Assembly (NCBI RefSeq): GCF_903772925.1
Contig: NZ_LR812090.1
Location: 3,370,599-3,434,598 of the forward strand
Source of the DNA: Alteromonas macleodii
GTDB lineage: Bacteria; Pseudomonadota; Gammaproteobacteria; Enterobacterales; Alteromonadaceae
Length of the DNA stretch: 64,000 nucleotides
Direction of reading: 5' to 3'
In this document: positions 10,449 through 58,800 of the stretch, one piece after another
Numbering within the stretch: the stretch's first letter is position 1
How the letters are laid out: each line of letters begins with the position of its first letter
Program-made: the position numbers and the translations under genes
Notes under the pieces: generated by a model
Seen by the model: the letters and a program-made list of their open reading frames with translations, nothing else
Database searches by the model: none
What the model was told of the DNA's origin: nothing

Positions 10449-11015
10449 CTAGTGTACGGATGGCGTGTCTTGTTGATCATCAAGAAGTGATTGACCAAGT
10501 TCACTGAAGCATAAAATAGCTGAGATTTTCACGTATTCTTCTACTTCAAAGAGCGCTTTTTCAGATTCTTCATCAGCATCCATCGGCTCTTCCATACGAG
10601 AAATATCTGAGAAGTCTTCAAGCGCTTCTTTAACATCGTCAGAACACTGCACAAGGTCCTGCTGATGTAAACCGAAACCAAGCATAAAACCCTGCACCCA
10701 GTTTATTAGCGCAGCGCCGCGGTCGTTAATAGGCGCTTGGTCTTCTGGAAGCAACAAGCTAAGCGCAAATTCAGGCTCTAATAACTGCTGGCAGGTTTGA
10801 TTGAAAAGCGTATTGAGAAGGTGTTGTGTTTGGTCGCTGAACGCATCACCTTGGTTGATGGTTTCGCTAAGGGCTTCAAGCCACTTTTGATCGGTAAGCG
10901 ACATGCCACCACAGAGCATTCCGGTTAGAATGCCGTGTACTTCTGCCGCATCTACAATGATACCTTGCTGTGACAATTTATTAGTTACGCTATCGTAATC
11001 GAGCTGTTTTTCCAC
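10449..11015 (-). CDS. ygfB: UPF0149 family protein YgfB
   Basis: 188 residues, UPF0149/YgfB family. Matching blocks include EVHGILTGMLCGG near residue 24, ALINWVQGFMLGFGL near 105, and an acidic stretch followed by EEYVKISAILCFSEL at the end, all conserved in YgfB. The start is a GTG at 1013-1015 of the 10-11 kb block (11015 on the minus strand), with an AGAGA-like ribosome site. In Pseudomonas, YgfB modulates expression linked to beta-lactam resistance through an ampDh3 programme; whether that applies here is unknown. It is the first gene of the ygfB-pepP-ubiH-ubiI operon, 75 bases before pepP. Confidence 0.88.
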   Translation of the reverse strand: MEKQLDYDSVTNKLSQQGIIVDAAEVHGILTGMLCGGMSLTDQKWLEALSETINQGDAFSDQTQHLLNTLFNQTCQQLLEPEFALSLLLPEDQAPINDRGAALINWVQGFMLGFGLHQQDLVQCSDDVKEALEDFSDISRMEEPMDADEESEKALFEVEEYVKISAILCFSELGQSLLDDQQDTPSVH

Positions 11016-11024
11016 GATTCGTTC

Positions 11025-11375
11025 TCTTTATTTAAGATGAGTTGAGTTTTCACAGCCCTTTTTGATTTCGGCCGTTACTCCGTGATGGCGTTAATACTAG
11101 CAAAAATCAATATACAAAGCCCACTTTTGGCAATTTACCGTGCAGTGTTTGAACAGTGCATTTATAGTAAAGATTATACTTTGTACAACGAACCCATACA
11201 TTGTTTACTGACTGTTCAAACAACCGCGAATTGGCGTTAATTTAACGAAATGAGCGCTGCTATCCCTAGCAACGAACGCATAATTAATCTAAGATCACCA
11301 TTGTTGGATACGGAATTCCTCTCGCAGCAGTATTTAAAAGTCTTGTAAGTTTGTAACTAAATTAGCTGTTTGGTT
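11025..11375. other. Intergenic region between ygfB and the 6S promoter
   Basis: About 350 bases with no credible ORF. It should hold the ygfB promoter. The only structure seen is a 12-bp inverted pair, TGTTTGAACAGT at 11146-11157 and ACTGTTCAAACA at 11211-11222. In enterobacteria and many relatives zapA lies here, directly upstream of ssrS. No zapA-like reading frame is present. Confidence 0.6.
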
Positions 11376-11379
11376 ATTA

Positions 11380-11407
11380 TTGAGCTTATCTTATATGCGT
11401 GTATAAT
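11380..11407 (+). promoter_or_regulatory. Candidate sigma-70 promoter for the 6S RNA precursor
   Basis: TTGAGC (11380-11385) and a perfect TATAAT (11402-11407) with a 16-base spacer. Transcription would start near 11414, about 135 bases upstream of the mature 6S 5' end. This resembles the long-precursor promoter P2 of E. coli ssrS. Confidence 0.6.
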
Positions 11408-11410
11408 TGC

Positions 11411-11424
11411 TGACCAATTGGTCA
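11411..11424. promoter_or_regulatory. 14-bp perfect palindrome at the predicted transcription start, candidate operator
   Basis: TGACCAATTGGTCA is fully self-complementary and starts 4 bases after the -10 box, so a bound repressor would cover the start site. The symmetry is of the kind bound by TetR-type dimers, but no specific regulator is identified. Confidence 0.45.
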
Positions 11425-11548
11425 AGAAAATAGTATTTTTTTACCGCTTTTATATTCACCACGCAAAAATAGTTATAAAGCGCGTTAGGTGATCCTCTTC
11501 ACTGGATCTCGCGTTTGTTATACCCTGTTGCGTTAATACAACAACAAT

Positions 11549-11728
11549 GTTTCCTGGGATGTTTGCTAGTTCATTCATGTCCCTGGCCGATGCTTTAAAC
11601 CTAGGAAGTTGAAACAGCTGCTATTGTGCAAGCTCGACGCGTATCGAGAAGCCTACGGCAATTGTGATTCTTCCGCCCTGAACTTTTCGGTTCACGGGCG
11701 AAACATGGACAGCGGCATTCTGGGAAGC
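11549..11728 (+). ncRNA. ssrS: 6S RNA
   Basis: About 180 bases that align by eye with E. coli 6S RNA. The 5' strand TTTCCTGGGATG (11550-11561) pairs over 12 positions, with G-U pairs, with the 3' strand CATTCTGGGAAG (11716-11727), forming the closing stem. Conserved blocks are GTCCCTGGCCGATG in the 5' half, CGAGAAGCCTACGG in the middle and CCGCCCTGAAC...GTTCACGGGCG as a hairpin in the 3' half. 6S RNA mimics an open promoter and binds the sigma-70 RNA polymerase holoenzyme in stationary phase. Placement upstream of fthC, with extra genes inserted here, matches the ssrS-fthC synteny. The exact ends are estimates. Confidence 0.88.
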
Positions 11729-11751
11729 GCCCTCTTTCGACGGAAGAAGAA

Positions 11752-12648
11752 ATGGCAATAATAAATTTTGGCTCTATAAATATTGACCACGTTTATCAGG
11801 TAGATCACTTTGTGCAACCTGGAGAAACGTTGGCCTCAACCCATTACCAAACACTACTAGGTGGTAAGGGAGCAAACCAGTCGATTGCTTTAGCGCAAGC
11901 AGGTGCAGACGTACGTCACGTCGGCAGCATTCACGAAAACGACGCCTCTTTCAAGCAAGCCCTTATCAAAAAAGGGGTAGATTGCCGTGGTGTTAAGTGT
12001 TCAGAAGTTCCTTCTGGTCACGCTATCATTCAAGTCACGCCTAGCGGCGAAAATGCCATTGTGCTTTTTGGTGGTGCTAACCAAACCATTACAGCAAAAA
12101 CGGTAATGCAAGCGCTAGACGATACACGCCCTTCAGACTGGGTACTAACCCAAAACGAAACAAGCAGCATCGAAGAAGTACTTCGCCAAGCGAAGGAAAA
12201 ACAGTTAAAGGTTGCCTTTAACCCTGCTCCTATGAGCGAGTCGGTTAAACAGCTACCACTGGAATGCGTCGATTTGCTTATTGTTAATGAAACAGAAGCG
12301 GCAGCAATAACTGGCAAAGAAGAATTTGAAGATATTGTGACAGTGTTCAAAGAACAATGGTCACACTGCGAAGTTATCATTACACTGGGTAAAGCAGGCG
12401 TAATGATGCTTCGTAAAGACGACGTCATAGAAGTAAACGCTTTTTCTGTAGATGCAGTTGATACAACTGCGGCAGGCGATACCTTTATCGGTTATTTCTT
12501 ATCTGCCTACAGTAACCACACCGATGCTAAACAGGCGTTGCGTCGTGGCTGTGCCGCCTCAGCGATTGCAGTAACTCGTGAAGGCGCAGCACAGAGTATT
12601 CCAACACAAAAAGAAGTGGATCGTTTCTTAGCGAAACACGCCAACTAG
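11752..12648 (+). CDS. rbsK: Ribokinase (PfkB family)
   Basis: 298 residues, PfkB carbohydrate kinase. Diagnostic motifs are NFGSINIDHVYQVD at the N-terminus, GGKGANQSIALA near residue 37 (PfkB signature 1) and VDTTAAGDTFIGYF near 243 (signature 2, with the catalytic Asp in AAGD). It phosphorylates D-ribose to ribose-5-phosphate. The start has a good purine-rich ribosome site (GGAAGAAGA) and lies only about 24 bases after the 3' end of 6S RNA, so the kinase is probably translated from the tail of the 6S precursor transcript. It pairs with the nucleoside hydrolase 22 bases downstream, which would release ribose. A related sugar or deoxyribose substrate is possible. Confidence 0.86.
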   Translation: MAIINFGSINIDHVYQVDHFVQPGETLASTHYQTLLGGKGANQSIALAQAGADVRHVGSIHENDASFKQALIKKGVDCRGVKCSEVPSGHAIIQVTPSGENAIVLFGGANQTITAKTVMQALDDTRPSDWVLTQNETSSIEEVLRQAKEKQLKVAFNPAPMSESVKQLPLECVDLLIVNETEAAAITGKEEFEDIVTVFKEQWSHCEVIITLGKAGVMMLRKDDVIEVNAFSVDAVDTTAAGDTFIGYFLSAYSNHTDAKQALRRGCAASAIAVTREGAAQSIPTQKEVDRFLAKHAN

Positions 12649-45155: not shown

Positions 45156-46028
45156 ATGTTTAACTCTATCGCGCTTGTTGGTGGTACTCATGGCAATGAA
45201 ACCAGTGGTATTCAGCTTATTAAAAACTGGCAACAGTTTGGGCTACCTTCGCGATTTAATGAGCTAAACGTTTCATTGAACATAGCTAACGAAGCTGCTC
45301 TAGACGCTAACGTGCGGTTTGTAGAAGAAGATTTAAATCGGCAGTTTACCTTTGAGCGCTTATCAAATGACAACACCGCTAAAGAAGCCGTGCTTGCTAA
45401 ATCATTGAATGAAAAATTCGGTCCGAAAGGTAACTCAAATACCGACTTTGTTATTGATATTCACAACACCACCAGCGAGATGGGCGCCACGCTAATTATT
45501 CTAGAAGCGGATGAATTTCACGTTCAGTTAGCACGATTTGTTAAACAACAAATGCCCGAAGCGAATATTTTGGTGGAAGACGAAAAGCCTTATCTTGAAC
45601 ACGGTTATTTGTGTACTACCGGTAAGAAAGGGGTAATGATTGAAGTGGGCGGTCAGCCTCAAGGCGTATTAAGAGAAGATGTTTACCTTTTAACACAAAC
45701 TATGGCCGAGGCTATTTTAGATTTTTGTGTAGCCTATAATAACCAAAAGATAGAAACAGACGCACTGCCTGCGTGTGAAGCCTTTCGCCTTGGTGAAAAC
45801 GTCGGCTTTCCATTAGATGGAAATGGCGCGCGTACCGCGATGATCCACCACTCATTGCAAGACAATGATTTTAAGCCTCTATTACCCGGTTCTCCCATGT
45901 TTAGAACTTTTGACGGAAAAGATATTCTCTGGGACGGTGAGAAAGAAACCTACCCTCATTTCATTAATGAAGCGGCGTACTTCAAGCTGGACGTTGCGTT
46001 CGCTACGGCCCAGCGCATTACTCTGTAA
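45156..46028 (+). CDS. Aspartoacylase (N-acetylaspartate/N-acyl-aromatic deacylase type)
   Basis: 290 residues, AstE/AspA superfamily zinc carboxypeptidase fold. Metal-binding motif ALVGGTHGNETSG (H12, E15), DLNRQFTF, DIHNTTSEM (third ligand) and EVGGQPQGV match aspartoacylase rather than succinylglutamate desuccinylase. It hydrolyses N-acetyl-aspartate or related N-acyl amino acids to acetate and amino acid. It starts at ATG 45156, 40 bases after yacG. A role in amino-acid catabolism is inferred from the family. Confidence 0.86.
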   Translation: MFNSIALVGGTHGNETSGIQLIKNWQQFGLPSRFNELNVSLNIANEAALDANVRFVEEDLNRQFTFERLSNDNTAKEAVLAKSLNEKFGPKGNSNTDFVIDIHNTTSEMGATLIILEADEFHVQLARFVKQQMPEANILVEDEKPYLEHGYLCTTGKKGVMIEVGGQPQGVLREDVYLLTQTMAEAILDFCVAYNNQKIETDALPACEAFRLGENVGFPLDGNGARTAMIHHSLQDNDFKPLLPGSPMFRTFDGKDILWDGEKETYPHFINEAAYFKLDVAFATAQRITL

Positions 46029-46129
46029 GGATAAGGCGTTGGTTTCGTTAGCCCCTCGGAAACTTGCCACAGTGTTTGAATGCGCCTTTACAGGAAACCG
46101 AGCTTAGACTCATTAGGTACTTGGTTTTG

Positions 46130-46163
46130 AAATTGCCAGTCAGTGTAGCTGACTGGCAATTTT
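46130..46163. terminator. Strong bidirectional terminator between aspartoacylase and the chemosensory operon
   Basis: AAATTGCCAGTCAG (46130-46143) pairs perfectly over 14 bases with CTGACTGGCAATTT (46149-46162), loop TGTAG. A-runs and T-runs flank it, so it can end both the plus-strand aspartoacylase transcript and the minus-strand chemosensory operon. Confidence 0.88.
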
Positions 46164-46259
46164 ACAGTAGTGATATCACTTACCTACGTACCCGTATTAA
46201 CTCTCATGGCTTCTAATCATTGATACTTTCAGCCCTGTCCTAATTTCTTAAAAATCTTA

Positions 46260-47549
46260 TTAAAACAGTTCTATCTTAGGCTCTCGGGCCTCTTCAAACT
46301 CATTTTTCTCTTCAGATGAAGACTCATTAATATCGAAATGGATTTTACGCTGATCTTCCATCACATACTTTTCAAACATTTCTTTAGTGCTTAAATTAAA
46401 CGACTCATCAAAATGCTCGCGGTTGTTAATGTAAGAAGAAAACTGTCCAAACAGACTAACAATGGCGTCTTGCTCTAGTTTCACGTGTTCGGTGCGCTGG
46501 CGAATAATATCTTGGAATTGAATTTTTGCGATTGCCCCACTGACTTTAAATGCAACCTCTGTTGCACTTTGCGAGAAGCAGGCCAGCATCTTGGGGTTAA
46601 GCTCTTCTAGTACACGATAGTGTGCCGTTATATTTTCCAGCGATTCAGAAAACCCTGTTAGTAATTCGCACGTATCATTTGCTCGTGTTGAGTTCAGCAT
46701 TTTTTCGCCCTGCAGATGCGCTGCATCAAGGGCAGATTTAATACCCGTTTCAATTTTTTCTGCTGCTTCTGAAGACTGAGACGATAAAATGCGCACTTGT
46801 TCAGCTACCACGGCAAACCCGCGTCCGTATTCGCCAGCTCGCGCCGCTTCAATTGCAGCATTAAGGGCTAATAAATTGGTTTGCGAAGCAATATTTTTAA
46901 CTAATTCGGTGAGTTCCTTTAGGTTTTCAACCTCACGCATTACCCCTTGAATGGCTTCAGTATCTGCAATCTGTTGCGCGCGCTGTGTATTGATCATTTC
47001 TTTTATATTAGATAGGCGCTGCGCCGCCAGCACAAACTCGTCTGCACTTTTCTCCTTACAATTAAGAGCATTCTTCTGACCCAATTCAACGTTGTCGATA
47101 CTATCTTGAATACTGCTTTCAATCTCATACAGCGCTTTCATTAGCTCCATTGAGGCGTCTTCAGTTATTGCACTTATGCCATCCATTTGCCCTTTTAATA
47201 TGGCTACGTAATCATTAACCTGAGCATGGGTTTCGCTTAACTGCGATGAAGTTTCTTGCAAATAGCTTTCTTGACGACTTAACTTGGCAGCAAACATGCG
47301 ATTCTGTCGGTTTGCATACCAAGGCACAAAGGTCAACATTGCTAAAATAGTTACACAGACTCCCCCATGCAGGCCCATTATCTCTATAGGTATACTCAGC
47401 GACCCCACTACGCCTACTACTGTTACGGCTAAAAGCCCGCCCCAAAGTAAAAGCGAATCCTGCATGTTACCTGTCTTTTCCTTAAGCACTTTTATTTTCT
47501 CAGCGAGCACTGTTTCGTAATACTGCTTTGCTTTTTCAAGTACTTTCAT
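46260..47549 (-). CDS. Methyl-accepting chemotaxis protein lacking a periplasmic sensor
   Basis: 429 residues. A cytoplasmic N-terminus ([21 protein letters not shown]) precedes two adjacent hydrophobic segments ([19 protein letters not shown] and [16 protein letters not shown]) with almost no loop between them, so no ligand-binding domain. The signalling helix bundle follows with its tip in [38 protein letters not shown]. The C-terminal half after the bundle ([20 protein letters not shown]) resembles a C-terminal helical extension. It is the last gene of the operon; in V. cholerae cluster I an MCP likewise lies at this end. It may sense membrane state or partner proteins (inference). Confidence 0.87.
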
Positions 47550-47558
47550 GTTTTTACC

Positions 47559-47927
47559 TTATGCAGCTGGTACCAACTGCTTTACTACACCTAACAATTG
47601 CTCTGGCTCGACGGGTTTGACAAGCCAGCCTGTAGCACCAGCAGCTTTCGCTTCTTCTCGACGACTTTGCTGCGACTCCGTGGTTAACATCAACATGGGG
47701 GTAAACCTAAATTTAGATTGCTGCTTTAGTGTTTTTATTAGTTCTATACCGTTCATACCCGGCATGTTTAAATCCGTTATTATTAATTTGGGCGATATGG
47801 ACTCAAGTGCCGCCATCGCTGCCTCTGCACTTTCTGATTTTGTTACTGTATAGCCTGCCCGTTTAAGCAGCATTTCCATACTCATTAGCATTGTTGCTGA
47901 ATCATCTACTAAGTGTATTGCGCTCAT
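47559..47927 (-). CDS. CheY-like response regulator 2
   Basis: 122 residues, receiver domain only. Acidic pocket LVDDS (Asp8/9), phosphoacceptor Asp52 in ITDLNMPG, Lys in LVKPVE. It lies 9 bases from the MCP gene and 17 bases after the ParA-type gene. It is the second stand-alone receiver in the operon. Which downstream process it drives is unknown; a flagellar switch target is not implied by the neighbours. Confidence 0.9.
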   Translation of the reverse strand: MSAIHLVDDSATMLMSMEMLLKRAGYTVTKSESAEAAMAALESISPKLIITDLNMPGMNGIELIKTLKQQSKFRFTPMLMLTTESQQSRREEAKAAGATGWLVKPVEPEQLLGVVKQLVPAA

Positions 47928-47944
47928 TGCATTACCTCTTGTTT

Positions 47945-48679
47945 CTAGCCGATTAATTGTTTACATAATTCAGTATAGTCGTGTGCGCCACGACTGTGAG
48001 GTGCATAAGCAAAAACGGGTTTGTTTTGAGCAAATGCCTCGGCTAATTTGATACTCTTTCTTATGGGAACCAGTACTTTGTTGCGCCCGTAGCGTTCATA
48101 CCAGCCACTAAGTTCTTGCCTGTGAAGCTTTAAATTTTGTTCAACCATTACGGGTAAAATGGTTAGCCTAGTCGCTCTGAACTTTCGCTCCGCCATAGCG
48201 TTTCTGCAGGCCGTTAATAATTTTTGCACGCCGTCACTGGCAAGCGGTAAAGGGGTAGCGGGAATAATAATGTCGGTAGCGGCTGATAGCGCGGCCATCA
48301 GTTGCGGACTCAGGGTCGGCGGTGTATCGATTAACACAATGTCGAAATGTGTTGTAACAGGAACTGAGTCGCACCAATTGCGTAGAGTGTCTAAAGTAAT
48401 GTTATCGTTCGTATTGGCCTTGTTCGTATCTACATTGGTTGCGTAAATGTTTTCTGAGCATTTCACTACTGACGTGAAAAAGTGGTTAATTGGCAATTCG
48501 GTAATCTCGTTTTGTGGTGCACATCCAAGCGCTTTTAAGCCGTGCATCACGTGCCCCTGATTATCAAGGTCTATGACCATTACTCGTTTACCCGCTTGGG
48601 CGAAACCATAAGCAAGGTTTACTACTGTTGTAGTTTTTGCTGTACCGCCTTTGCGATTAGCCACCGTGATCACTTTCAT
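47945..48679 (-). CDS. ParA/MinD-type ATPase of the chemosensory operon
   Basis: 244 residues from ATG 48679, whose ATGA overlaps the stop of the 84-residue gene. Deviant Walker A ANRKGGTAKTTTVV (11-17), Walker A' region VMVIDLDNQGHVMHG, and LIDTPPTLSP. ParA-like proteins of this kind position cytoplasmic chemosensory arrays (PpfA in Rhodobacter, ParC in Vibrio). The presence inside this operon suggests it places or partitions the array here. It is not a plasmid ParA: no ParB or parS is adjacent. Confidence 0.88.
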   Translation of the reverse strand: MKVITVANRKGGTAKTTTVVNLAYGFAQAGKRVMVIDLDNQGHVMHGLKALGCAPQNEITELPINHFFTSVVKCSENIYATNVDTNKANTNDNITLDTLRNWCDSVPVTTHFDIVLIDTPPTLSPQLMAALSAATDIIIPATPLPLASDGVQKLLTACRNAMAERKFRATRLTILPVMVEQNLKLHRQELSGWYERYGRNKVLVPIRKSIKLAEAFAQNKPVFAYAPHSRGAHDYTELCKQLIG

Positions 48680-48930
48680 TCGCACCACACATTACTTTTG
48701 TTATTCATCATTTTTGTGAGCCAAATCAGCTTTTCAGATTCTGGCCACACGCTGACTTTTGGCTTCTTTGCGAGCAGTACCTGATATACCGCAGTGTGTG
48801 CACTGACTAAGGCCTTTAAGTTAACTTGCCGAGAGGCTTCTTCGTTTAGCCAGGCAAACAGGCTTTCTGCCTCTTCAATTTCGCAATGTCCGGTCATCAC
48901 CGCCACTTTCTTTTTGAACGCTATAGGCAT
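48676..48930 (-). CDS. Small conserved protein between cheA and the ParA gene, possibly STAS-like
   Basis: 84 residues. A compact alpha/beta protein (VAVMTGHCEIEEAESLFAWLNEEASRQVNLKALVSAHTAVYQVLLAKKPKVSVWP) with an alternation that could fit a short STAS-like fold, though no diagnostic motif is visible. It overlaps the cheA stop by 10 bases and the ParA start by 4, so translation is coupled on both sides. A small gene occupies the same place in V. cholerae cluster I. Function unknown. Confidence 0.8.
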   Translation of the reverse strand: MPIAFKKKVAVMTGHCEIEEAESLFAWLNEEASRQVNLKALVSAHTAVYQVLLAKKPKVSVWPESEKLIWLTKMMNNKSNVWCE

Positions 48931-51623
48931 TGGGCTAACACCTCTTGTACATTGATGATTAACAGCACACGCCCGTCACCAAGCAACGCTGTTCCCGAAA
49001 AGTGCGCGTATCCCGCTAGCACCCCTTCAAGAGGTTTTTGAATAACATCAATACCCTCATGAAATTTATCGATGATTAACCCGAACTCTCCCTGTGGTGT
49101 TGCTACCACCAAAATTGAGTGCTCTTCTTTTTCCTCTGCCCCTTCAAAACCCAATGCGTCGCGCAGATTACAAAGTGGTATCAGCTTTTCTCGAATAACA
49201 AGAACCTGTTCGTTGCGAATGCGCTGAATGTCTGAGGTGGGCACTTTCACAGTTTCCACCACCGCATCCATTCCCACACCAAACATTTGGTCGTTTACTT
49301 CAAACATCATTACACGGTTAACCGACATAGTTTGAGGTAGCAGCAATTTGAAAGTAGTACCTACACCTACTTCGCTGTGCATTTCGATAGTGCCGCCTGC
49401 CTGGCTTACCATTGTTTTTACCGCATCCATACCGACGCCGCGTCCAGACAAATCTGAGACTTGTTCTGAGGTAGAAAAACCAGCAGCGAATATAAGCTGT
49501 AGGGCTTCGTTATCGTCTAGGCTCTCTAGTTGAGCTTCGCTGATGACCCCTTTTTGAAAGGCGAGTAGTTTAATTTTTTGTGGATCTATCCCTTTGCCAT
49601 CATCGCGGATTTCAATTATTACGCTGTCATCAAGAGGCGTAGCAATAAGGTCAATACGACCCATTTCTGACTTGCCCGCTGCAATCCGCTCAGACGGTGA
49701 CTCAATACCGTGATCGATGCTGTTTCTCAATAAATGAATAAGCGGCTCTGAAAGTGATTCAATTAAGTTTTTATCGAACTCGGTGTCTTCACCCTGCATA
49801 CAAAGCTCAATCTTTTTATCGAGCTTCCTCGCTAAGTCCCTCACTAAGCGAGGATAGCGCTGGAATACATGAGAGACAGGTACCATGCGTATTTGCAATA
49901 CCGCACTTTGCAGCGACTCAGTTAAGCGATTAACAATAGAAAAATGTGCTTTTATTTGCTTACTAAGCTTTCTACTTCCTCCTTCCTCCTCGGCTTGTTT
50001 GGCCAGATAAGGCAATGAGTTTTTCGCCACGGTGAGTTCGCCAACAATATCCATTAAGTAGTCGATTTTAGCTTGGTCGACTTTTAGCATCTTAACTGCT
50101 TGGCGCTCGGTTTTTACTGGCTGTGCATTGTCTTCTGCGCTGCTTAAGGGTTTAGTGTCGCCCACAGCTTCAGCGCTCTCTGCTGTATGCTCGGTCTTCG
50201 ATACTTCTACTGATGTTTCTTCTGCGCTTCGTTGCTTTTGTACTTCATCAGCTTGTTCTTTAATTGTTTCGTCATCGAGCGCATTACAAATGGCAACGGC
50301 CACGGCGTCTTCGTCGCTAAAGGTTTCGCCTAAGATATTTCCTACCAGCCCTGCGATAGAGGGAAACATAAACTCTGACTTATAGCTGTCTGAATTCAAA
50401 AGCGTGAGCTGTTGTGTAAGGATCGCTTTTTCATGGGGGGCTAATGCTTTTCCACACAGCACAGAAGCATGTGGTGAAATTCCTTCAGCTTCCTGTGAGC
50501 TATCGTCGCCAAGTTTGCCAGCCGTGCTGTCGGTAGAAGTACTTTCTGCGCTAAATGCAGTACTGTCCTTATCAATATGAGTATCTTCACTCCCACTTTC
50601 ATTGGCTTGCGCGTCCCGATTCAGAAAGTCGAGTTCGCCTGCTGTCGATAAGCATTCCAGCACCGCGTGCTTCGCATCATCAAAAAGAGCATCACTTACG
50701 TCCTGGGAAGCAAGCAACAGCCCTGCACTAGCGTGCACCTGCTCAAGATCATTCTCTTTCAGTGCATCCGATAACGTTTGGTCAGCAATGAGAGCAACAT
50801 TATCTTTAATCTTATCTACGCAACTTGCTCTTAACGCGTGGCTAGTAAATACCGTAAGGGAATATTGCCCTTCGTAATAAGCCATGTGCTGCTTAATTGC
50901 GTCTGCATCTGCACAACCAAGTGCTTCGATATTGGTCACACAGTTGTAAATATCGGCATCATGGTTAAGTTCGGGCATATCTATGTTGAACGCTTTAAGA
51001 CCCGGTAAAGCAAGCGCCACATTTATAGGGTCTTCACCACGAAAGAAACAGCCTTCATCTGGCGTGTATTTAATATGGTAACAAAATGGCCCTTCGACCT
51101 GACTTAAAAGCTTAAGGTCAGCGTTATCACTAAAAGCCGCCAACATGTCTCTTTGTTCGTCAGTGAGGGCTTTATCATCTGATGATGTCAAATCATTATG
51201 TGCAGCGTTATTTTCGTTACCAGGCGAGTCTAAACCATTAGGGTCGATAAAATGCCTTAACTGTGCCCCTAACTTAGCCGAGATGGGTTGCCACTGCTCT
51301 AGGTCTTGTGAGCCCACCTCTAGCTCATCAAACCATATCGAAATTTGATCTAAGGCTTCAAGCAGTAGGTCGCCTATATCGTCACTAAAAGCAACTTCGT
51401 TCGCTCTTACACTATCGAGCAAGTCCTCTGCAGCATGGGCTAACCGAGTTAAAGGTTTAATATCAAATAAGTCAGACGACCCTTTGATAGTGTGCAAATC
51501 GCGAAAGATTTTATCTACGCGTTCTGATGCTGGTCCAGACGATTGAATTGCTAACAGCTCTTGGCTTGCCGATTCTAAGTTTTCTCGCGACTCTCCAATA
51601 AAGGCATCAAGTAATTCACTCAT
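48921..51623 (-). CDS. cheA: Chemotaxis histidine kinase CheA
   Basis: 900 residues from ATG 51623 (GGAGGGA ribosome site). Hpt domain with His44 in LHTIKGSSDLF. A ferredoxin-like P2-type segment (YHIKYTPDEGCFFRGEDPINVALALPG, near 165-200) follows; then a long acidic, low-complexity linker (about 335-520). Dimerisation (DYLMDIVGELTVAKNSLPYL), HATPase (LLRNSIDHGIESPSERIA, EIRDDGKGID, GRGVGMDAVKTMVSQAGG) and a C-terminal CheW-like domain complete it. It is longer than flagellar CheA because of the linker. It phosphorylates the CheY-like proteins and CheB. It begins 8 bases within the upstream receiver gene. Confidence 0.93.
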   Translation of the reverse strand: MSELLDAFIGESRENLESASQELLAIQSSGPASERVDKIFRDLHTIKGSSDLFDIKPLTRLAHAAEDLLDSVRANEVAFSDDIGDLLLEALDQISIWFDELEVGSQDLEQWQPISAKLGAQLRHFIDPNGLDSPGNENNAAHNDLTSSDDKALTDEQRDMLAAFSDNADLKLLSQVEGPFCYHIKYTPDEGCFFRGEDPINVALALPGLKAFNIDMPELNHDADIYNCVTNIEALGCADADAIKQHMAYYEGQYSLTVFTSHALRASCVDKIKDNVALIADQTLSDALKENDLEQVHASAGLLLASQDVSDALFDDAKHAVLECLSTAGELDFLNRDAQANESGSEDTHIDKDSTAFSAESTSTDSTAGKLGDDSSQEAEGISPHASVLCGKALAPHEKAILTQQLTLLNSDSYKSEFMFPSIAGLVGNILGETFSDEDAVAVAICNALDDETIKEQADEVQKQRSAEETSVEVSKTEHTAESAEAVGDTKPLSSAEDNAQPVKTERQAVKMLKVDQAKIDYLMDIVGELTVAKNSLPYLAKQAEEEGGSRKLSKQIKAHFSIVNRLTESLQSAVLQIRMVPVSHVFQRYPRLVRDLARKLDKKIELCMQGEDTEFDKNLIESLSEPLIHLLRNSIDHGIESPSERIAAGKSEMGRIDLIATPLDDSVIIEIRDDGKGIDPQKIKLLAFQKGVISEAQLESLDDNEALQLIFAAGFSTSEQVSDLSGRGVGMDAVKTMVSQAGGTIEMHSEVGVGTTFKLLLPQTMSVNRVMMFEVNDQMFGVGMDAVVETVKVPTSDIQRIRNEQVLVIREKLIPLCNLRDALGFEGAEEKEEHSILVVATPQGEFGLIIDKFHEGIDVIQKPLEGVLAGYAHFSGTALLGDGRVLLIINVQEVLAQCL

Positions 51624-51993
51624 TGGCGCTCCCTCCAATCACTGCACTCACCACCGACTTCAGCATGTCTGCATCGACGGGTTTGGTCATGTAGTAATTT
51701 GCACCGCACTGATAAGCGCGCTCAGCGTCTTGATTAGCCGACTCTGTGCTGATCATGATTATAGGCACTGCGCGTAACGCATCGTTGCGGCGAATCTCTT
51801 TACACAGTCGATAGCCATCCATTTTTGGCATATTCACATCAACGAGGAACAAGTCGACCTGCGTACCTATGGCTTTTTCTAACGCCTCGACACCGTTTTC
51901 TGCTTCTTCAATTATCCTGTCAGGAGTAGATACCAGCATTTTATGGAACATTCTTACCGTAGAGGCATCATCAACAATCATTACTGTTTTCAT
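51616..51993 (-). CDS. CheY-like response regulator 1
   Basis: 125 residues from ATG 51993 (GGAGGGG 8 bases upstream). Receiver domain only: acidic pocket IVDDAST, phosphoacceptor Asp52 in LVDVNMPKMDG, switch residue in IMISTES, Lys104 in YMTKPVD. It lies 1 base after cheR and overlaps cheA by 8, hence coupled translation. Together with the receiver at 47559 it gives the array two alternative phosphate sinks; which one carries output is unknown. Confidence 0.92.
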   Translation of the reverse strand: MKTVMIVDDASTVRMFHKMLVSTPDRIIEEAENGVEALEKAIGTQVDLFLVDVNMPKMDGYRLCKEIRRNDALRAVPIIMISTESANQDAERAYQCGANYYMTKPVDADMLKSVVSAVIGGSANE

Positions 51994-51994
51994 G

Positions 51995-52849
51995 TTAAGC
52001 CCCTCCTGCAAGTGGCTTTTGATAGGCAATCACATCGCCAAACTTGCGAACCTTAAACATTGACGAAATTCGACTCATCGACTCGCTGTGCCCCAAAAAG
52101 ATATAGCCGCCAGGCTTCATGGCGTCGTAAAGCACGTGCGCCGCTTTCTTTCGAGATTCATCATCAAAATAAATAAGCAGGTTGCGACAAAAAATAAGGT
52201 CAAAATGCCGAAACTGTTTCATGTTGCTGCCCGACAAAATATTAGCCAATGTGAATGACACCGACTCACGGATATCTTCACTTAGCTGGTATTGTCCATT
52301 AACTTCTTTGAAGTATTTTTTGACGAGAGGCAGCGGGATATTCTGTACAGAACGTTTTGAATAGAGCCCTTTCTTTGCTGACGCCAGCACGTTGCTGTCG
52401 ATATCGGATGAAACCAACTCTACATCTCTGTGTGCTAGGCCTTTCCAATACTCAATAAGGTATATTGCAATGGAGTATGGCTCCTCTCCCGTGCTTGAGG
52501 GAACTGACCAAATTCTCAAATCTTCTCCTGGCGCACGGTAACCATCTAGCTCATCCATGATGTCTCGTACCATTGCCTCAAACTGGTATTCTTCGCGAAA
52601 GAAATAGGTTTCATTCACCGTCATCGAATTCACAAGATTTTGGAACTCTTCACCCGATGCTTGAAAACGCATATAGGTAAAATAGCCTTTAAACGTTGTG
52701 TGGCCCGTGGCTTTCATCCGCTCATGAAGACGCTTATCAACGAAGTAGCGCTTTGAATCTTCAAAGTGAATGCCCGTTTTTCGATAAAACATAGAGCGGA
52801 ACCGTTCAAAGTCGGCAGCATCTATTTTTTCTAGTACTGCGTTACTCAT
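51995..52849 (-). CDS. cheR: Chemotaxis protein methyltransferase CheR
   Basis: 284 residues from ATG 52849, which partly overlaps the upstream HEAT-type gene (8 bases). Family motifs: the N-terminal helical domain with NETYFFREEYQFE, the SAM-binding region RIWSVPSSTGEEPYSIAIYLIEY and IFCRNLLIYFDDESRKKAAH, and the late MKPGGYIFLGHSESM. It methylates conserved glutamates of the cytoplasmic receptors, adjusting array sensitivity. Confidence 0.93.
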   Translation of the reverse strand: MSNAVLEKIDAADFERFRSMFYRKTGIHFEDSKRYFVDKRLHERMKATGHTTFKGYFTYMRFQASGEEFQNLVNSMTVNETYFFREEYQFEAMVRDIMDELDGYRAPGEDLRIWSVPSSTGEEPYSIAIYLIEYWKGLAHRDVELVSSDIDSNVLASAKKGLYSKRSVQNIPLPLVKKYFKEVNGQYQLSEDIRESVSFTLANILSGSNMKQFRHFDLIFCRNLLIYFDDESRKKAAHVLYDAMKPGGYIFLGHSESMSRISSMFKVRKFGDVIAYQKPLAGGA

Positions 52850-53483
52850 CACCGCCCCTTACTTGGTTTCGTATCAATGAAATAACAAATTGGATATAGC
52901 TATGATTTGGGAATCGACTTTCTACGGTTTGCAATATCTCTAACGTAGATACGTCGGCAATTTCGGCGAGTTTATCCAGTGCTGTGCCGACTACATTTTC
53001 ATTGTCATCGTTAAGTGCAAACTGATGTAGCCAGTTTACTGCCTCAATGTGCGCCACTGCGCCAATAATATCCACACAGAAAATACGTGTATCGGGGTCG
53101 TCGTCATGCATCAACATATTCACGTTAGCGGCGAATATATCTGGGTTTTGCTGCATGAGTTCTATAGCACCGTTTCGAAGCTGTACATGTTCGCTCTTGA
53201 GCATAGTAAGCACTTGTGACGCGTGACTTTCTGACATGTCATGTTCAAGAGCACTAAAAAGTGCCTCGATGACGGTAGGGTCGTCTTCGTGTGGCAGTCT
53301 GCTGAGAAACACATCGTGGGCGTCTTTCTGACCACTCAAATCTCTTACCGCCCATCGGCGAACGTCACAGTCGTCTGAATTTAAGTCGCTAACCAATTGT
53401 TCTGTAGTTCTGGGGTGTTCGCGCTTTTCTTCAAAGTCTTCAGAAATATTGGCAACAGGCTCCATTTTCTTTTTCAAACCCAT
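52842..53483 (-). CDS. HEAT-repeat-like protein of the chemosensory operon
   Basis: 213 residues from ATG 53483, with AGGAG 8 bases upstream; a TTG further up at 53507 is unlikely. After a charged N-terminus it shows about four to five helical repeats (SDDCDVRRWAVRDLSGQKDAH, DDPTVIEALFSALEHD, EHVQLRNGAIELMQQNP, DPDTRIFCVDIIGAVAH), the HEAT/PBS-lyase-like pattern. HEAT proteins are scaffolds. Its place between cheB and cheR matches the unnamed gene VC1400 position in V. cholerae cluster I. No enzymatic motif is present. Confidence 0.8.
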   Translation of the reverse strand: MGLKKKMEPVANISEDFEEKREHPRTTEQLVSDLNSDDCDVRRWAVRDLSGQKDAHDVFLSRLPHEDDPTVIEALFSALEHDMSESHASQVLTMLKSEHVQLRNGAIELMQQNPDIFAANVNMLMHDDDPDTRIFCVDIIGAVAHIEAVNWLHQFALNDDNENVVGTALDKLAEIADVSTLEILQTVESRFPNHSYIQFVISLIRNQVRGGDE

Positions 53484-53497
53484 TTTTACTACTCCTA

Positions 53498-54535
53498 TTA
53501 ACGACAAAGCGCATTTAATTTCGATGCGATCTTTGGACTGTCTAGTACAAAACTGGCGCAGCCTGCTTCGATAAGCTCTTTGGGCATACCGAACACGACC
53601 GACGTTGCTTCGCTCTCCGCGATAGTTGTTGCTCCTTCTTTGAATGCTTTACTCATTGCGGCAACCCCATCACAGCCCATCCCAGTTAGTTGAACACACA
53701 GCATGGAAAGCGGCTTGTAGCAGTTGAGTGCGCTATCTACCATTCGATCTACACTGGGGTGCCACAAAAAGCTGGGGCTAGATGGTACAGGGCGCGCCGA
53801 CACTTCACTGCCTACTTTTGAAAACGCCAGGTCCGCGTCCCCTTTGGCCAAGTAAACAGTGCCCGGTTGAATAGGCATTTTTCTATTCACTTCAATGACA
53901 TTGAGTGGGCTAAGGCCATCTAAACGCTTTGCCAGCGCACTGGTAAAAGACGCGGGCATATGTTGAGAAATAACAACTGGAACAGGAAGGGCCGGACTCA
54001 GGTTTGCGACCAAATGTTCCAGCTTTTTCGGTCCCCCCGTTGAGACACCCACCAGTACTATTTCATAGGCCGCACTGCTCGTGTTTCGCACAACCCTTTG
54101 CTTGACAACGGGCGGCGCTTTAATGGTGGGACGCTGGGGTTTACCGGTTTTCGCTAACGCGTTTATTTTATTTACCAGAGGTACCGCTAGATCAGATATA
54201 TCCCGCGTAACTGTACCACCTGTTTTAAGCACAAAGTCACTGGCGCCAAGGGCGAGTGCTTCCAAGGTGATAGTTGCACCTTTCTGCGTTAAAGAGGACA
54301 CCATGATAATTGGGCATGGATGCATCTTTTTTAGCATGGCTAAGCAGGTCATGCCGTCCATTACCGGCATATTTATATCCAAGGTGATGCAGTCGGGTTC
54401 GAACTCTACGGCTTTCGTCAATGCCTCTTCACCGTTACGCGCCACCTGAACAACAAACCCCTCTTTTTCAAAGAGTTGAGTAAACAGCTTTCGCATTAAC
54501 GCAGAGTCATCAACGATAAGTACTTTAACTGTCAT
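53498..54535 (-). CDS. cheB: Chemotaxis methylesterase/deamidase CheB
   Basis: 345 residues. N-terminal receiver with Asp53 in ITLDINMPVMDG and Lys in VLKTGG. C-terminal esterase domain with the catalytic Ser165 (GVSTGGPKK), His192 (SQHMPASF) and the Asp in LTGMGCDGVAAM. It removes methyl groups from receptors or deamidates glutamines, opposing CheR; the N-terminal domain is phosphorylated by CheA to activate it. 20 bases separate it from the CheW gene and 14 from the HEAT gene. Confidence 0.95.
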   Translation of the reverse strand: MTVKVLIVDDSALMRKLFTQLFEKEGFVVQVARNGEEALTKAVEFEPDCITLDINMPVMDGMTCLAMLKKMHPCPIIMVSSLTQKGATITLEALALGASDFVLKTGGTVTRDISDLAVPLVNKINALAKTGKPQRPTIKAPPVVKQRVVRNTSSAAYEIVLVGVSTGGPKKLEHLVANLSPALPVPVVISQHMPASFTSALAKRLDGLSPLNVIEVNRKMPIQPGTVYLAKGDADLAFSKVGSEVSARPVPSSPSFLWHPSVDRMVDSALNCYKPLSMLCVQLTGMGCDGVAAMSKAFKEGATTIAESEATSVVFGMPKELIEAGCASFVLDSPKIASKLNALCR

Positions 54536-54555
54536 ACACTACCTCAATCGTCTTC

Positions 54556-56103
54556 TTAATACTGCTGTTGTGCCGCGGCTACGGCGTTGTCATTGAGTAA
54601 CACATTGGGTTCGATGATCTGAATGATGCGCTTTTCGTCATTAAGCTTTATCAAGCGGTTTAAAAACTCAGACTGCATATCAGAGAGTGACGGCGCATTT
54701 TCGATGGTTTGTCTTACCACCGTTTTTACTTCCGCCACACCATCGACAATGAATCCCGTGCGCTGCTTGTCTTTGGTTAGAACAACAATGCGCTGGCGCT
54801 CTGAGGTCTCGCTGCTAGGCATACCCAAGCGACTGCGCAAGTCGATGACAGGCAGCACCGTACCACGAAGGTTCACAATTCCTTTTAAGTAATCGGGCGT
54901 GCTCGGCACACTTTCTAGTTTTTCAGGCACGCGCGTAATCTCTTGAGTATCGTCAATGCTCACGCCATACTCTTGCCCGTTAATCCAAAAGATGACGTAT
55001 TGTTCGCAATCATCTTCATCGATAGTCACATCATTGCCTTCGCTCATTTGCGACTCCTGCTTGATATCGTCTTCAATGCTGCTAAGTGCGCTCATTAATG
55101 CACGACCGTAAATATTAGAAAGGTTAATAATTGACACTAGTCGTTTGCCGCCATCGCTGCGATATACTGCTTCTAGCAAGCCTGATTCCGCGCCGTCATT
55201 ACATACTGAAGGTACGCTCTCTAGCTCTGAATCAGATATAGACACCACATTACTAACTTTAGCGACAACAAAGCCTACACTGCCAAACTCACTGTTTTGC
55301 GTTACCACTATTCGCGAGGCTTCATTGATATCCGTATGCATCATGCCAATAGCATTGGAAAGGTCGACGATTGGGATAATACGGCCACGAAGATTTACCA
55401 ACCCCAACACTGCTGGCGCACTGTCTGGCAACTGAGAAATTTCTGAAGGTACTCGCACGATTTCTTCTACGTCTTGCAGATGAAAAGCGAACTCTTGCTC
55501 TTCAAGAGAAAAACAAACTAGCTGCTGTAGACTGTCATCCTCTTCGGCTTCTTGAACTTCGTCGTTATCAATACGTTTCATCCCCGACAACTGCATGGCG
55601 TTACCGTCCTGCTTTGTTACAGCTTGCGCCTTAGCAAGTGCAGATACATCTAGAATTTGCTCGACTGGCTGGTCGCTTTGTTTAATGATGCCCAGCATAT
55701 AGTCATAGGCGATAGAGTCCGTCATTGCCGATTTATCAATGACCGTGTCGTTGGGTGCGCTGTATACACGGAGTACTCTATCGACCAAGAAACCAACGCT
55801 GCCAAGCTCAGACTCAACGACAATAACGCGAGTCACATCACTTGTTTGTGTTTGGGTTCCCAGCAAAATCGCGCTTAGGTCATAAACGGGCAATACATTC
55901 CCACGAAGATTAGCTAAACCAATCATTTGCGGCGGCCCCAGCGGTACCGACACCATTGTCGGCACGCGAATAATTTCCCCCACGGACAACATAGGAAAAG
56001 TAAAACGCTCTTTGTTGACCAAGAAGGAGACAAACTGTTGTTCGCCGTCCGCCGCTTGTTCTGTATTGCGTTCAGTTTCGTCAAAAGTGTTATCGTTACT
56101 CAT
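54556..56103 (-). CDS. cheW: Triple-CheW scaffold protein
   Basis: 515 residues consisting of three full CheW/SH3-like domains (about 22-160, 194-335, 368-510), each with the receptor/kinase interface motif NLRG: NLRGNVLPVYDL (65-68), NLRGRIIPIVDL (238-241), NLRGTVLPVIDL (412-415). Acidic linkers separate them. A single CheW has one such domain (about 150 residues), so this is three per chain. Each domain may bind CheA or receptor tips independently, which would alter array geometry. It sits between cheB and the double receptor. Confidence 0.93.
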   Translation of the reverse strand: MSNDNTFDETERNTEQAADGEQQFVSFLVNKERFTFPMLSVGEIIRVPTMVSVPLGPPQMIGLANLRGNVLPVYDLSAILLGTQTQTSDVTRVIVVESELGSVGFLVDRVLRVYSAPNDTVIDKSAMTDSIAYDYMLGIIKQSDQPVEQILDVSALAKAQAVTKQDGNAMQLSGMKRIDNDEVQEAEEDDSLQQLVCFSLEEQEFAFHLQDVEEIVRVPSEISQLPDSAPAVLGLVNLRGRIIPIVDLSNAIGMMHTDINEASRIVVTQNSEFGSVGFVVAKVSNVVSISDSELESVPSVCNDGAESGLLEAVYRSDGGKRLVSIINLSNIYGRALMSALSSIEDDIKQESQMSEGNDVTIDEDDCEQYVIFWINGQEYGVSIDDTQEITRVPEKLESVPSTPDYLKGIVNLRGTVLPVIDLRSRLGMPSSETSERQRIVVLTKDKQRTGFIVDGVAEVKTVVRQTIENAPSLSDMQSEFLNRLIKLNDEKRIIQIIEPNVLLNDNAVAAAQQQY

Positions 56104-56137
56104 GAGGCAGCTCCTCGTTAAAGCCTAGGGCGATGGA

Positions 56138-58045
56138 TTAGCCGTTTTGCATTTCATCTGCTACTGAAGCGATTTCTTCAATAGACTTAGCCAGTATCTC
56201 CATGCCCTTACTTTGCTGGTCGGCCGCGTTGAGTGCCTGCTGACAGTTACTGCTCGCTTGCTCATTTGCTGTCGCAATTTGCTCAAGCCCACGCTGGGCC
56301 TGTGTAACTCCGGCAGCAATTTCTTCACCCCGCTCTTTCATCGCTTGGTTATATTGCACAACTTCGTTGATGTCAGTCGCAATTTGTTCGACATCTTGCG
56401 TCGTTTGCTTCGCTTTCATGACCTCTCTATACGCGCTTTCAGCAACGTTTGTTAAGTCAGTTTTCACGCTCATGGTTTGATCTTGAATGGCTTTGATGAG
56501 GTCTTTTATCTGCTCTACGTTTTCAGCCGCTTCATCAGCTAGGCTTTGAATATCTGCTGACACAACCGCAAAACCTTTGCCATACTCACCTGCTCGCGCC
56601 GCTTCTACCGCACCATTAACCGCCAACATGCTGGTTTTCACCGATACTGTGGTGATAGTATCGATAACCTTATCTATTTGACGTGTCATGACTTCCATCT
56701 CACTGATGGCACTCACATTTTCCTTGCTAGTTTCAAGGGCGAGGTTTATGCCGCTAACCATTCCCTCAATCAACGCACGGTTTTCTTTAAGCAATCCAGC
56801 AATAGCATTCCCTTTCTCTAACGCTACATCACACTGCGCTGAAGCTTTATCAACGCCTTCTCTTAACAGGTCGATATTTCCTACGGCTTGGTCAACAGAG
56901 CTTGCCGCTTGTTGCGAGCCATTATTAACTTGGGTCAGTGCCGTCATGATTTCACTGGATGAGCGATTGATTTCTTCAAGGGTTGCTGACAATTCTTCTG
57001 CTGACGAGGCCACCTCTTCAGCGCTCTTATTAATGTCTGTACTGTTTTTAAGCTCTTCAGTGATTATCTCTAGTGACTGTGCTGCCTGTTCGGCCTGAGA
57101 TAAAGCTACGCTCTGCTCAGAGACATTAGATGACACTTCCTGGGCTGCAGTTGACTGCTCGTCGGCAGCACACGATATTGCTTCTGAACCGGTTTGAATT
57201 TCTTTGGCTGCGGCATCCATACTCTTGACCTGTGCCTGTAGTTCGTCTGCACCATCGGCAATGCTCTGCATGTCTGATTTGATGGTTGTAAGCTGTTCGG
57301 TAACCGCTTCGCCTTTAGTCACTTCCTCAAGCGCTGCTTCTGAAGACGATTTAACCGCATCAGAGACTCGATTTGATTGCTCTTGAATACGCTCTATTTG
57401 TTTGGCTATGTCAGCAGCGCTCTTATCGGAGACTTCTGCGAGTGCGCGTACCGTATCAGCGACTACGGCAAATCCCTTTCCGTGCTTACCAGCCCGTCCC
57501 GCCTCAATAGCAGCGTTAAGCGCTAGCAAGTTAGTCTGATCGGCAATGCGGGTCACTTGTTTTACAGCTTCGCCGATGTTCGATGCTTGTTGCTCTAACT
57601 CGCTCATCATCACCACTGAGCGTGATTGATGCTCAGACGCAGTTTTAACGCTGGTCATCATGGTGCTTAAATCGCCAACCACACGCTCAAGGTAAGTTTG
57701 AAGCTCGTTGGTTTTGTCCATTGTCGAGCCTGCCAATTCAAGCTGCGCAACCAGGCCACCTGAAATCTGAGTGATAGCCGCTAAGCTTTCTTGGCTTGCA
57801 CTGCTTGACTCTTCGGCCCCGGCGGCAATTTCGTTAACCGCCGTTGAGAGTTGGTCGGTAGCACTTGATGCCTGGTTAATACCGCTGGCCAACTCTGTTG
57901 TAGCCGAAGCTACTCGCTCTGCTGCCTGTTGCTGCCTTGCTAACGTTCTCGCTTTGCGGCGCTCCTCTTCCGCTTCTTTTCTCATTTTTGCATCTACGCG
58001 AACGGCAGGTGCGGCTACTGGGTCAGATGATTTTTTGAGCGCCAT
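56138..58045 (-). CDS. dosM: Double-signalling-domain soluble chemoreceptor, DosM-like
   Basis: 635 residues, no membrane segment, no ligand-binding domain. After a basic N-terminus (about 1-45) there are two complete MCP signalling bundles, with hairpin tips at 165-200 ([34 protein letters not shown]) and 465-500 ([31 protein letters not shown]). The second tip has VNGAV instead of LNAAI. This is the layout of the V. cholerae cluster I receptor DosM, which stabilises two-layered cytoplasmic arrays. It is the first gene of the operon. The symbol is assigned by architecture and synteny. Confidence 0.88.
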
Positions 58046-58371
58046 AATTAACCTCGATATATAAATGGCTGTTAATGCACCTTTTAAATATCGTTTAAAT
58101 CTCGACCGCTAAAAGTATAAATCCGTATACGTTTATATAAAAACAAGCACCCAACGCGCAAATTCTTGCGCCCCAAACTAAAAATGTCATTAAAGTCACA
58201 AATGACACTTTTTGACATTGCCATATAAAAACAAAAACTTATATATTAGATGTTATGCAAGGCGAGAATGGCAATTTTGTCAAAGTACAAAAGTCTAATA
58301 ATCTGGTTAGAAGTGTGCTTTTTTTTGAAAAGAAAATGTTTGAAAATGAGCAGTTTATACTTAGGTATAAT
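58046..58371. other. Promoter region of the chemosensory operon
   Basis: About 325 bases between dosM and the mutT terminator with no real gene. It holds a near-palindrome TATAAAtcCGTATACGTTTATA (58116-58137), about 75 bases upstream of dosM, and a 7-bp inverted repeat TGTCATT/AATGACA (58185-58207). Either could be an operator. No canonical flagellar sigma-28 promoter was found. Confidence 0.45.
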
Positions 58372-58395
58372 AAAAAAGCGGCCATTGGCCGCTTT
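58372..58395 (-). terminator. Rho-independent terminator of the secA-mutT transcript
   Basis: AAAGCGGCC (58375-58383) pairs with GGCCGCTTT (58387-58395) around ATT. On the minus strand the stem is followed by six T. It lies 25 bases after the mutT stop. Confidence 0.87.
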
Positions 58396-58419
58396 GGTTT
58401 GTTGCTATTTAGATCGCAT

Positions 58420-58800
58420 TCACTGCAGAGCGCTAATAATAGGAACGTTAGCTTCTGGAAAGTCAGAGGCGTTAAGTGCTTTCACATTTACCCATCGAGA
58501 CTGCTGCCCCTCTTTACCATGGGGTTCGCCGGTAAAATCACACACGCGATGAACGTCTAGTTTAACTTGCTTGTCGCCATAATCATGGGTGATCACAATC
58601 ACAGGCTCGCTGCGGTTTACGCTAATACCTACTTCTTCAGCAAGCTCTCGCCTTAACGCCTGAAGCACGGTCTCACCCGCTTCTACTTTGCCGCCGGGAA
58701 ACTCCCATTTTCCGCCCTGATGAACGTTATCTGGCCGAAGAGTAATGAATATTTCATCGCCGCGGGCGATAACGCCCACAGCAACGTGCACCACTTTCAT
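58420..58800 (-). CDS. mutT: 8-oxo-dGTP diphosphatase MutT (Nudix)
   Basis: 126 residues. The Nudix box [24 protein letters not shown] spans about residues 36-59 and has all consensus Glu. The N-terminal [19 protein letters not shown] and the ending [12 protein letters not shown] match MutT. It removes oxidised dGTP from the nucleotide pool. The ATG overlaps the secA stop by one base (TAATG), as in E. coli where mutT follows secA. Confidence 0.94.

Follow-up and report, generated by a model that had tools for sequence, protein, structure and literature searches.

An F9-class chemosensory operon with an optional ParA-family ATPase in Alteromonas macleodii: gene content, short terminal tags and a candidate positioning model

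What kind of chemosensory system does a compact operon of eleven genes in Alteromonas macleodii encode, and what might a ParA-family ATPase be doing within it? The operon lies in a window of 64,000 nucleotides (assembly GCF_903772925.1, contig NZ_LR812090.1, positions 3,370,599 to 3,434,598), and the original prediction, made from the letters alone, had assigned it to the type of Vibrio cholerae cluster I. Our analysis agrees that it encodes an array of the F9 class, the class of cluster I; we put the probability of this identity, which is well supported by sequence features, at roughly 0.85. The function of F9 arrays is termed unknown in reviews (PMC7534058, PMC11940527). All eleven predicted open reading frames (ORFs) and their domains were found, co-directional and with clean starts and stops, from 58045 to 46260:

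56138..58045, minus strand: DosM, receptor with two MCP signalling tips and the N-terminal tag MALKK (Pfam, hydropathy, motif positions)
54556..56103, minus strand: CheW3, three concatenated CheW domains (Pfam, three CheW stretches)
53498..54535, minus strand: CheB, receiver and methylesterase, catalytic motifs present
52842..53483, minus strand: HEAT-repeat protein, N-terminal tag MGLKKK (Pfam HEAT_2)
51995..52849, minus strand: CheR methyltransferase (Pfam)
51616..51993, minus strand: CheYa, receiver-only, adjoining CheA, without a FliM-binding face
48921..51623, minus strand: CheA kinase with Hpt, dimerisation, ATPase and CheW domains, in the F9 group of the tree
48676..48930, minus strand: 84-residue protein, core module member, possibly STAS-like (synteny; STAS_2 matches in the family)
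47945..48679, minus strand: ParA-family ATPase, P-loop KGGTAKTT, optional in F9 clusters
47559..47927, minus strand: CheYb, second receiver-only protein, without a FliM-binding face
46260..47549, minus strand: MCP2, two predicted membrane segments, no Pfam sensor domain, C-terminus KIELF

With the most likely ATG starts, the intergenic gaps in gene order are 34, 20, 14, -8, 1, -8, -10, -4, 17 and 9 bases, so the claim that all gaps are below 40 bases holds, and from this spacing the eleven genes likely form a single transcript. In gene order, Pfam gives MCPsignal twice (DosM), CheW three times, CheB, HEAT_2, CheR, a receiver, the CheA domains, nothing for the 84-residue protein, ParA/AAA_31, a receiver and a single MCPsignal. 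The gene descriptions stood as named, with the refinements that CheW is a triple CheW and that the last receptor has two predicted membrane segments. Internal terminators do not appear to break up the operon, as there are 10 terminator-like sites in 46000-58600 against a mean of 12.9 in shuffled sequences, which is no excess. The gene order is not a matter of chance, because it is identical in five further genomes (L047-L051; in L050, cheB is present as two ORFs, 10941-12045) and recurs over 90 loci from several phyla.

F9 is marked by two signature parts, a triple CheW and a DosM that has two signalling domains (PMC9321776); both are described for V. cholerae cluster I (PMC7534058). Both are present in the window, where DosM has two signalling domains and no sensor domain, and Pfam recognises three concatenated CheW domains in CheW3. 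A maximum-likelihood tree was built from 94 CheAs by a quick method, with support from the SH-like approximate likelihood ratio test (SH-aLRT) only and a midpoint root used for drawing. A branch with 100% SH-aLRT sets apart 87 rows, including the window CheA and three Vibrio CheAs that stand in for V. cholerae CheA-1, which bears out the predicted class. On the opposite side are the three other CheAs of this genome and four from Desulfovibrio/Desulfobacterales. The nearest named relatives of the window CheA are from Alteromonas (L055-L057); the Vibrio rows attach to the long Donghicola branch, and their placement within the group may be wrong. A Geobacter CheA on a long branch (L128), whose locus has no recognised DosM and is not an F9 cluster, also falls inside the 87-row group.

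Cluster I (VC1394-VC1403) shares with the window DosM, the triple CheW, CheB, CheR, two CheYs and CheA (PMC7534058, PMC11940527), along with a receptor with a membrane region (VC1394), and the order agrees with the published lists; it has ten locus tags, whereas the window has eleven genes. All ten genes of the V. cholerae type are present here in order, and the eleventh is parA. The original prediction overlooked the chief difference, which is that three Vibrio F9 clusters, of ten genes each, have no ParA; the F9 class is already known, and a ParA appears to be absent from the published V. cholerae cluster. The three clusters come from a scanned genus labelled Vibrio from a Vibrio LuxQ family match, in which 3 of 227 genomes carry an F9 CheA, and the HEAT protein of one is 99% identical to that of V. 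tritonius. Within the Vibrionaceae, cluster I was known only from V. cholerae as of 2010 (PMC2890568), and these genomes add further species. Reviews of V. cholerae list cheY1, cheA1, cheY2, cheR1, cheB1 and cheW for cluster I (PMC11940527), and the main texts of PMC7534058 and PMC11940527 contain no mention of HEAT, STAS, VC1396 or VC1400. By position, VC1396 would be the 84-residue protein and VC1400 the HEAT protein, because the ten Vibrio genes then fill the ten V. cholerae positions.

Since the full set of CheA, CheW, CheB, CheR and CheY is present, the operon could be read as the flagellar chemotaxis system of the organism, or as a copy of another class. Besides the window CheA, this genome encodes three more, making four in total. 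Two are in tandem at 0.30 Mb (L052), in the vicinity of soluble receptors with EWESF/DWEAF ends and of receptors whose last residues are VELF; the third is at 1.15 Mb (L053), together with CheB, ParA and CheW homologues. From gene context and general class features, we take L052 to be two F7-like clusters and L053 to be the motility (F6-like) cluster. The window CheA is far from all three, and of 59 genomes from the genus, a CheA profile finds its F9 kind in just 15. CheYa and CheYb keep the phosphorylation residues and lack the FliM-binding face, which the L053 CheY keeps (KPFTAATLxEKL) and which the L052 CheYs lack as well. Taken together, this leaves the flagellar or copied-class reading with hardly any credence. 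Since neither CheY has the motor-binding face, the system probably does not act by switching flagella directly, and V. cholerae CheY-1 and CheY-2 are likewise reported to lack that face (PMC2890568). No common output gene was found among 18 neighbours of ten loci, out of 16 listed, plus an extra pair at L056; the neighbours include receiver-HD proteins in two loci (L085, L110) and histidine kinases in four (L058, L064, L071, L112). We also observed that the two tandem clusters of L052 (294000-313900) have similar CheAs.

How constant is this module elsewhere? A CheA-profile scan of named genomes gave at least 80 loci, and we annotated 90 loci in all, consisting of L047-L051, 74 of these 80 (L055-L126, L129 and L133), three plasmid loci, three from Vibrio and five from the genus. 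The remainder were omitted for another gene layout (L127, L130, L132, L134), for having no DosM or CheW3 found (L128) or for lying on a 3-kb contig (L131), and the 90 do not include a fourth plasmid match (H4). Because the set contains near-duplicate loci and loci truncated at contig ends, the following counts over the 90 are lower bounds: CheA 90, the 84-residue protein 88, CheYb 82, CheYa 80, CheR 78, CheB 77, MCP2 77, HEAT 76, CheW3 76, DosM 73 and ParA 40. The commonest complete orders are without ParA (25 loci), with ParA after the 84-residue gene as in the window (17), and with ParA after MCP2 (13). The hosts include Myxococcota, Thermodesulfobacteriota, Nitrospirota, Acidobacteriota, one actinomycete and several classes of Pseudomonadota, and a published catalogue counts 64 full F9 clusters in 2781 species, sporadic and with many transfers (PMC9321776). 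That catalogue likewise defines the class by DosM and CheW3, and its main text names no HEAT, STAS or whole-word ParA, which its supplementary gene-order tables may do. HEAT and the 84-residue gene are core parts that two V. cholerae reviews do not name. The loci with another layout (L127, L130, L132 and L134, Desulfovibrio and Desulfobacterales) hold a different cluster, CheB-HEAT-CheR-ParA-CheW-CheY-CheA, in which a HEAT protein (about 640 residues) and a ParA are paired with a chemosensory kinase outside the F9 group.

The ParA of the window is a P-loop ATPase that matches Soj/ParA structures; it is encoded with the array genes in an operon without a ParB gene, and the P-loop of the Alteromonas rows has alanine for the usual glycine before lysine. 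Had ParA simply moved elsewhere in the genomes whose clusters lack it? A profile search for F9-type ParA covered 25 genomes, 22 with ParA-less clusters (two of them metagenome assemblies) and three controls. The control F9 ParAs scored 285-369 bits, and no other ParA in these 25 genomes exceeded 205; none of the 22 ParA-less genomes had an F9-type ParA elsewhere, 21 having a match of at most 203 bits and one none at the cut-off. Relocation was rejected on this result, and ParA is accordingly optional rather than moved. The F9 ParA model gives the L053 ParA of the host genome 105 bits, where ParAs of the genus and close relatives score 374-408. That ParA was found in only 40 of the 90 loci, a set with some truncations at contig ends, could suggest that ParA and the 84-residue gene are hitch-hikers with no role in the array. 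We regard this as very unlikely, given the 88 loci with the 84-residue gene, the separation of F9 ParA scores from those of other ParAs and the 4-base overlap of parA with its neighbour in the window. In L158 (7089-7831), parA is broken into two ORFs and the remaining ten genes are intact, which is either a natural ParA-less case or a sequencing error.

The DosM of the window has its tip motifs at residues 181 and 481. This tip-to-tip distance of 300 residues is found in 73 of 74 DosMs (73 loci and the window) and is 297 in one, and the second tip is followed by 154-157 residues to the C-terminus. Hydropathy gives no membrane segment in any of the 73 DosMs, and none is predicted in that of the window. 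Conservation of the first tip is that of an ordinary receptor, and the second is conserved but different; therefore, the two ends of the rod are not equivalent. The constancy of length fits a spacer role, which would by analogy extend to Alteromonas. Elsewhere in the host genome, four receptors without predicted membrane segments (L171, L172, L174 and L177) lie outside the F7-like clusters and are candidate sensory partners of DosM.

DosM and the HEAT protein also share a short N-terminal tag. Start sites were set from a Shine-Dalgarno score, the start codon and the distance to the profile start, without regard to the motif. The strict tag M-[AGSPTV]-[LIF]-x-[KR] is then found in 59 of 72 DosMs and 65 of 76 HEAT proteins; among 463 background ORFs it occurs in 4, and none of the other nine operon families has more than one member that carries it. 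A looser form is met by 62 and 65 of the same proteins and by at most two members in most other families. HEAT therefore carries the same kind of tag as DosM, and the two may share a docking site on the core. Alternatively, the tag could be a signal for translation or N-terminal processing. Alanine as the second residue and an early lysine are common in well-translated genes, AAA and AAG prevail at position 5, and the looser pattern is met by some members of other families. However, several synonymous codons encode each tag position, and the strict motif is nearly absent from the other nine families and from 459 of the 463 background ORFs, making a signal of this kind improbable.

A third tag is found in MCP2, whose C-terminus reads [IVFM][EQ]LF in all 75 proteins (ELF in 72 and QLF in three; two of 77 were dropped at contig ends). 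The same 75 proteins vary in membrane segments by hydropathy, with two in 36, one in 22 and none in 17. A C-terminal E-W/V-E-x-F on System III receptors has been suggested to bind CheR3, with comparable receptor motifs for CheR1 and CheR2 less apparent (PMC11940527). Because the MCP2 tail resembles this motif, it is probably a tether for CheR/CheB. An open-literature text search for IELF/VELF tails together with chemoreceptor and pentapeptide returned no paper.

Could the DosM tag be what ParA reads? We compared dependent with independent evolution on the CheA tree over loci of certain ParA status, 34 with ParA and 22 without, leaving the window itself aside. The loose DosM tag is present in 34/34 ParA-bearing and 16/22 ParA-less loci, and two basic residues at positions 4-6 in 32/34 and 12/22, respectively. 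Evolution dependent on ParA is favoured for the tag (likelihood ratio (LR) 11.4, chi-square p 0.022) and for the two basic residues (LR 12.05, p 0.017), and none of 100 simulations under independence reached 12.05. The HEAT tag shows no association with ParA (31/34 versus 18/21; LR 3.0, and 6.9 for two basic residues, not significant). By parsimony, ParA presence changes at least nine times on the tree. An early candidate, that the tag is a handle for ParA and nothing else, was rejected, since it is kept in ParA-less loci and, on HEAT, irrespective of ParA.

Finding a ParA within a che operon has precedents. PpfA of Rhodobacter sphaeroides acts through the N-terminus of TlpT (PMC3964821), and PpfA homologues are reported in che operons of 77 of 206 species (PMC2829493). 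The CheOp3/PpfA system is likewise a cytoplasmic array with a ParA homologue encoded beside a receptor (PMC3964821), but double signalling domains do not figure in the descriptions of its receptors TlpT and TlpC. ParC/ParP in Vibrio and Halothiobacillus is also a case of a ParA-family ATPase dedicated to a chemosensory array (PMC10241942, PMC7534058), though in the polar arrays of a motility system. In the open full-text literature we did not find the DosM/HEAT tag, the constant 300-residue span, the ELF tail of F9 receptors or the split between ParA-bearing and ParA-less F9 clusters; prior mention is possible, for instance in supplements or in the 2016 PNAS cryo-tomography paper on DosM, which were outside this scope.

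These observations would fit a cytoplasmic F9 array with its own positioning ATPase. DosM would form a rod outside the membrane, both ends of which are docking tips, with its 300-residue span keeping two CheA/CheW3 baseplates a fixed distance apart, and the tail of MCP2 would tether CheR/CheB. ParA would bind the nucleoid and move or anchor the array via the basic N-terminal tag of DosM, as PpfA does via TlpT, with HEAT and the 84-residue protein as core accessories and the HEAT tag possibly using the docking site of DosM. Contact between ParA and the DosM tag is a tentative proposal drawn by analogy, with evolutionary support, and we hold it at somewhat below even odds. A serious competitor, which also falls short of an even chance, is that ParA positions the array through another partner (HEAT, the 84-residue protein, CheW3 or MCP2) and that the correlation with the DosM tag is a by-product of lineage. 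It draws on the survival of the tag in 16 of 22 ParA-less loci, on the placing of parA directly after the 84-residue gene in 17 of 40 ParA loci (overlapping it in the window), and on CheW having been taken as the partner of ParC in H. neapolitanus (PMC10241942). Set against it, HEAT, the one alternative partner compared, has a tag without association with ParA, and the repeated changes in ParA presence are not one lineage split.

A number of points count against the proposal of an F9 array positioned by ParA through DosM. Both the identity of the array and the positioning model are read from sequence, and the V. cholerae side is represented by published gene lists and three other Vibrio genomes. 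The N-terminal tag was defined after viewing the data, and its looser form is also found in 23/88 of the 84-residue proteins, 11/75 CheBs and 16/463 background ORFs. The co-evolution test is post hoc and moderate, with chi-square p only about 0.02; its set includes near-duplicate loci, and fewer optimiser starts went into its simulations than into the real fit, so that the simulated LRs may be too low. As the DosM tag is kept in most ParA-less loci, ParA is not its sole reader. A straight helix rises by about 0.15 nm per residue, which makes 300 residues about 45 nm long. This exceeds the 35 nm between the two baseplates that DosM spans in the V. cholerae array (PMC7534058, PMC7184735), so a straight-ruler model does not fit, and the DosM rod must be kinked, overlapped or partly non-helical, or else the spacer model is wrong.

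For the two accessory proteins, homology offers some leads. The 84-residue protein of the window has no Pfam match at E 0.001, and the protein has no PDB sequence match. Across 82 members (81 of 86 in the family and the window), STAS_2 (PF13466) is matched by 43 at E up to 0.1 (best 3.7e-5) and PH_22 by six (best 4.5e-5), the window protein matching neither; a STAS-like nature is a lead. In Alteromonas confluentis (L056 15922-17886, and L160), MCP2 is followed by a second HEAT gene and a 424-residue CheA-like protein without a kinase domain. The pairing of this second HEAT with a kinase-less CheA-like piece is a hint that HEAT acts together with the N-terminal region of CheA.

How did the operon come to lie where it does? 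We compared ten F9 loci of the genus and Alteromonas (L047, L048, L055-L057 and L156-L160; the CheAs of L056 and L160 are identical). mutT adjoins DosM in all ten, and an aspartoacylase gene lies on the far side of the operon in nine, L047 being the exception. In ten of ten chosen F9-negative genomes of the genus, mutT directly adjoins the aspartoacylase gene. Since the flanks are kept in carriers and joined in non-carriers, the operon has been acquired or lost as one block at a single site within the genus; in L049, from another genus of the same family, neither gene is a flank. In L047 (1-4876), the 4.8 kb past MCP2 hold other ORFs, representing a later insertion or a rearrangement at the site. 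In the window, mutT-secA lies upstream of the operon, set apart by a terminator-like hairpin, and the boundary features are as follows:

58375..58395, minus strand: terminator-like hairpin 3' of mutT, the upstream operon boundary
58046..58374, minus strand: upstream region of 329 bp, presumed promoter region, partly conserved in an alignment of nine sequences
46130..46162, strand not assigned: perfect 14-bp hairpin between the operon and a convergent aspartoacylase-like gene

The upstream region holds a GTATAC-centred palindrome at 58116-58139, TGTCA/TGACA repeats and the block TTTGTACTTTGACAAA, kept in the nearest relatives, and no regulator was identified.

What would this mean for the F9 family? 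Our analysis proposes a fuller parts list for F9, with two core accessories and one optional ATPase, and three short tags that are each separately testable. More speculatively, and with a chance we consider low, there may be two kinds of F9 array, one partitioning itself over the nucleoid with ParA reading the DosM tag, and the other placed differently after the loss of ParA, with the HEAT and DosM tags competing for, or bridged by, one core site that gates assembly. The prediction is that ParA-bearing and ParA-less F9 arrays would be positioned differently, and this marine genus offers natural pairs for comparison, since some relatives carry the operon and others lack it at one and the same position on the chromosome.

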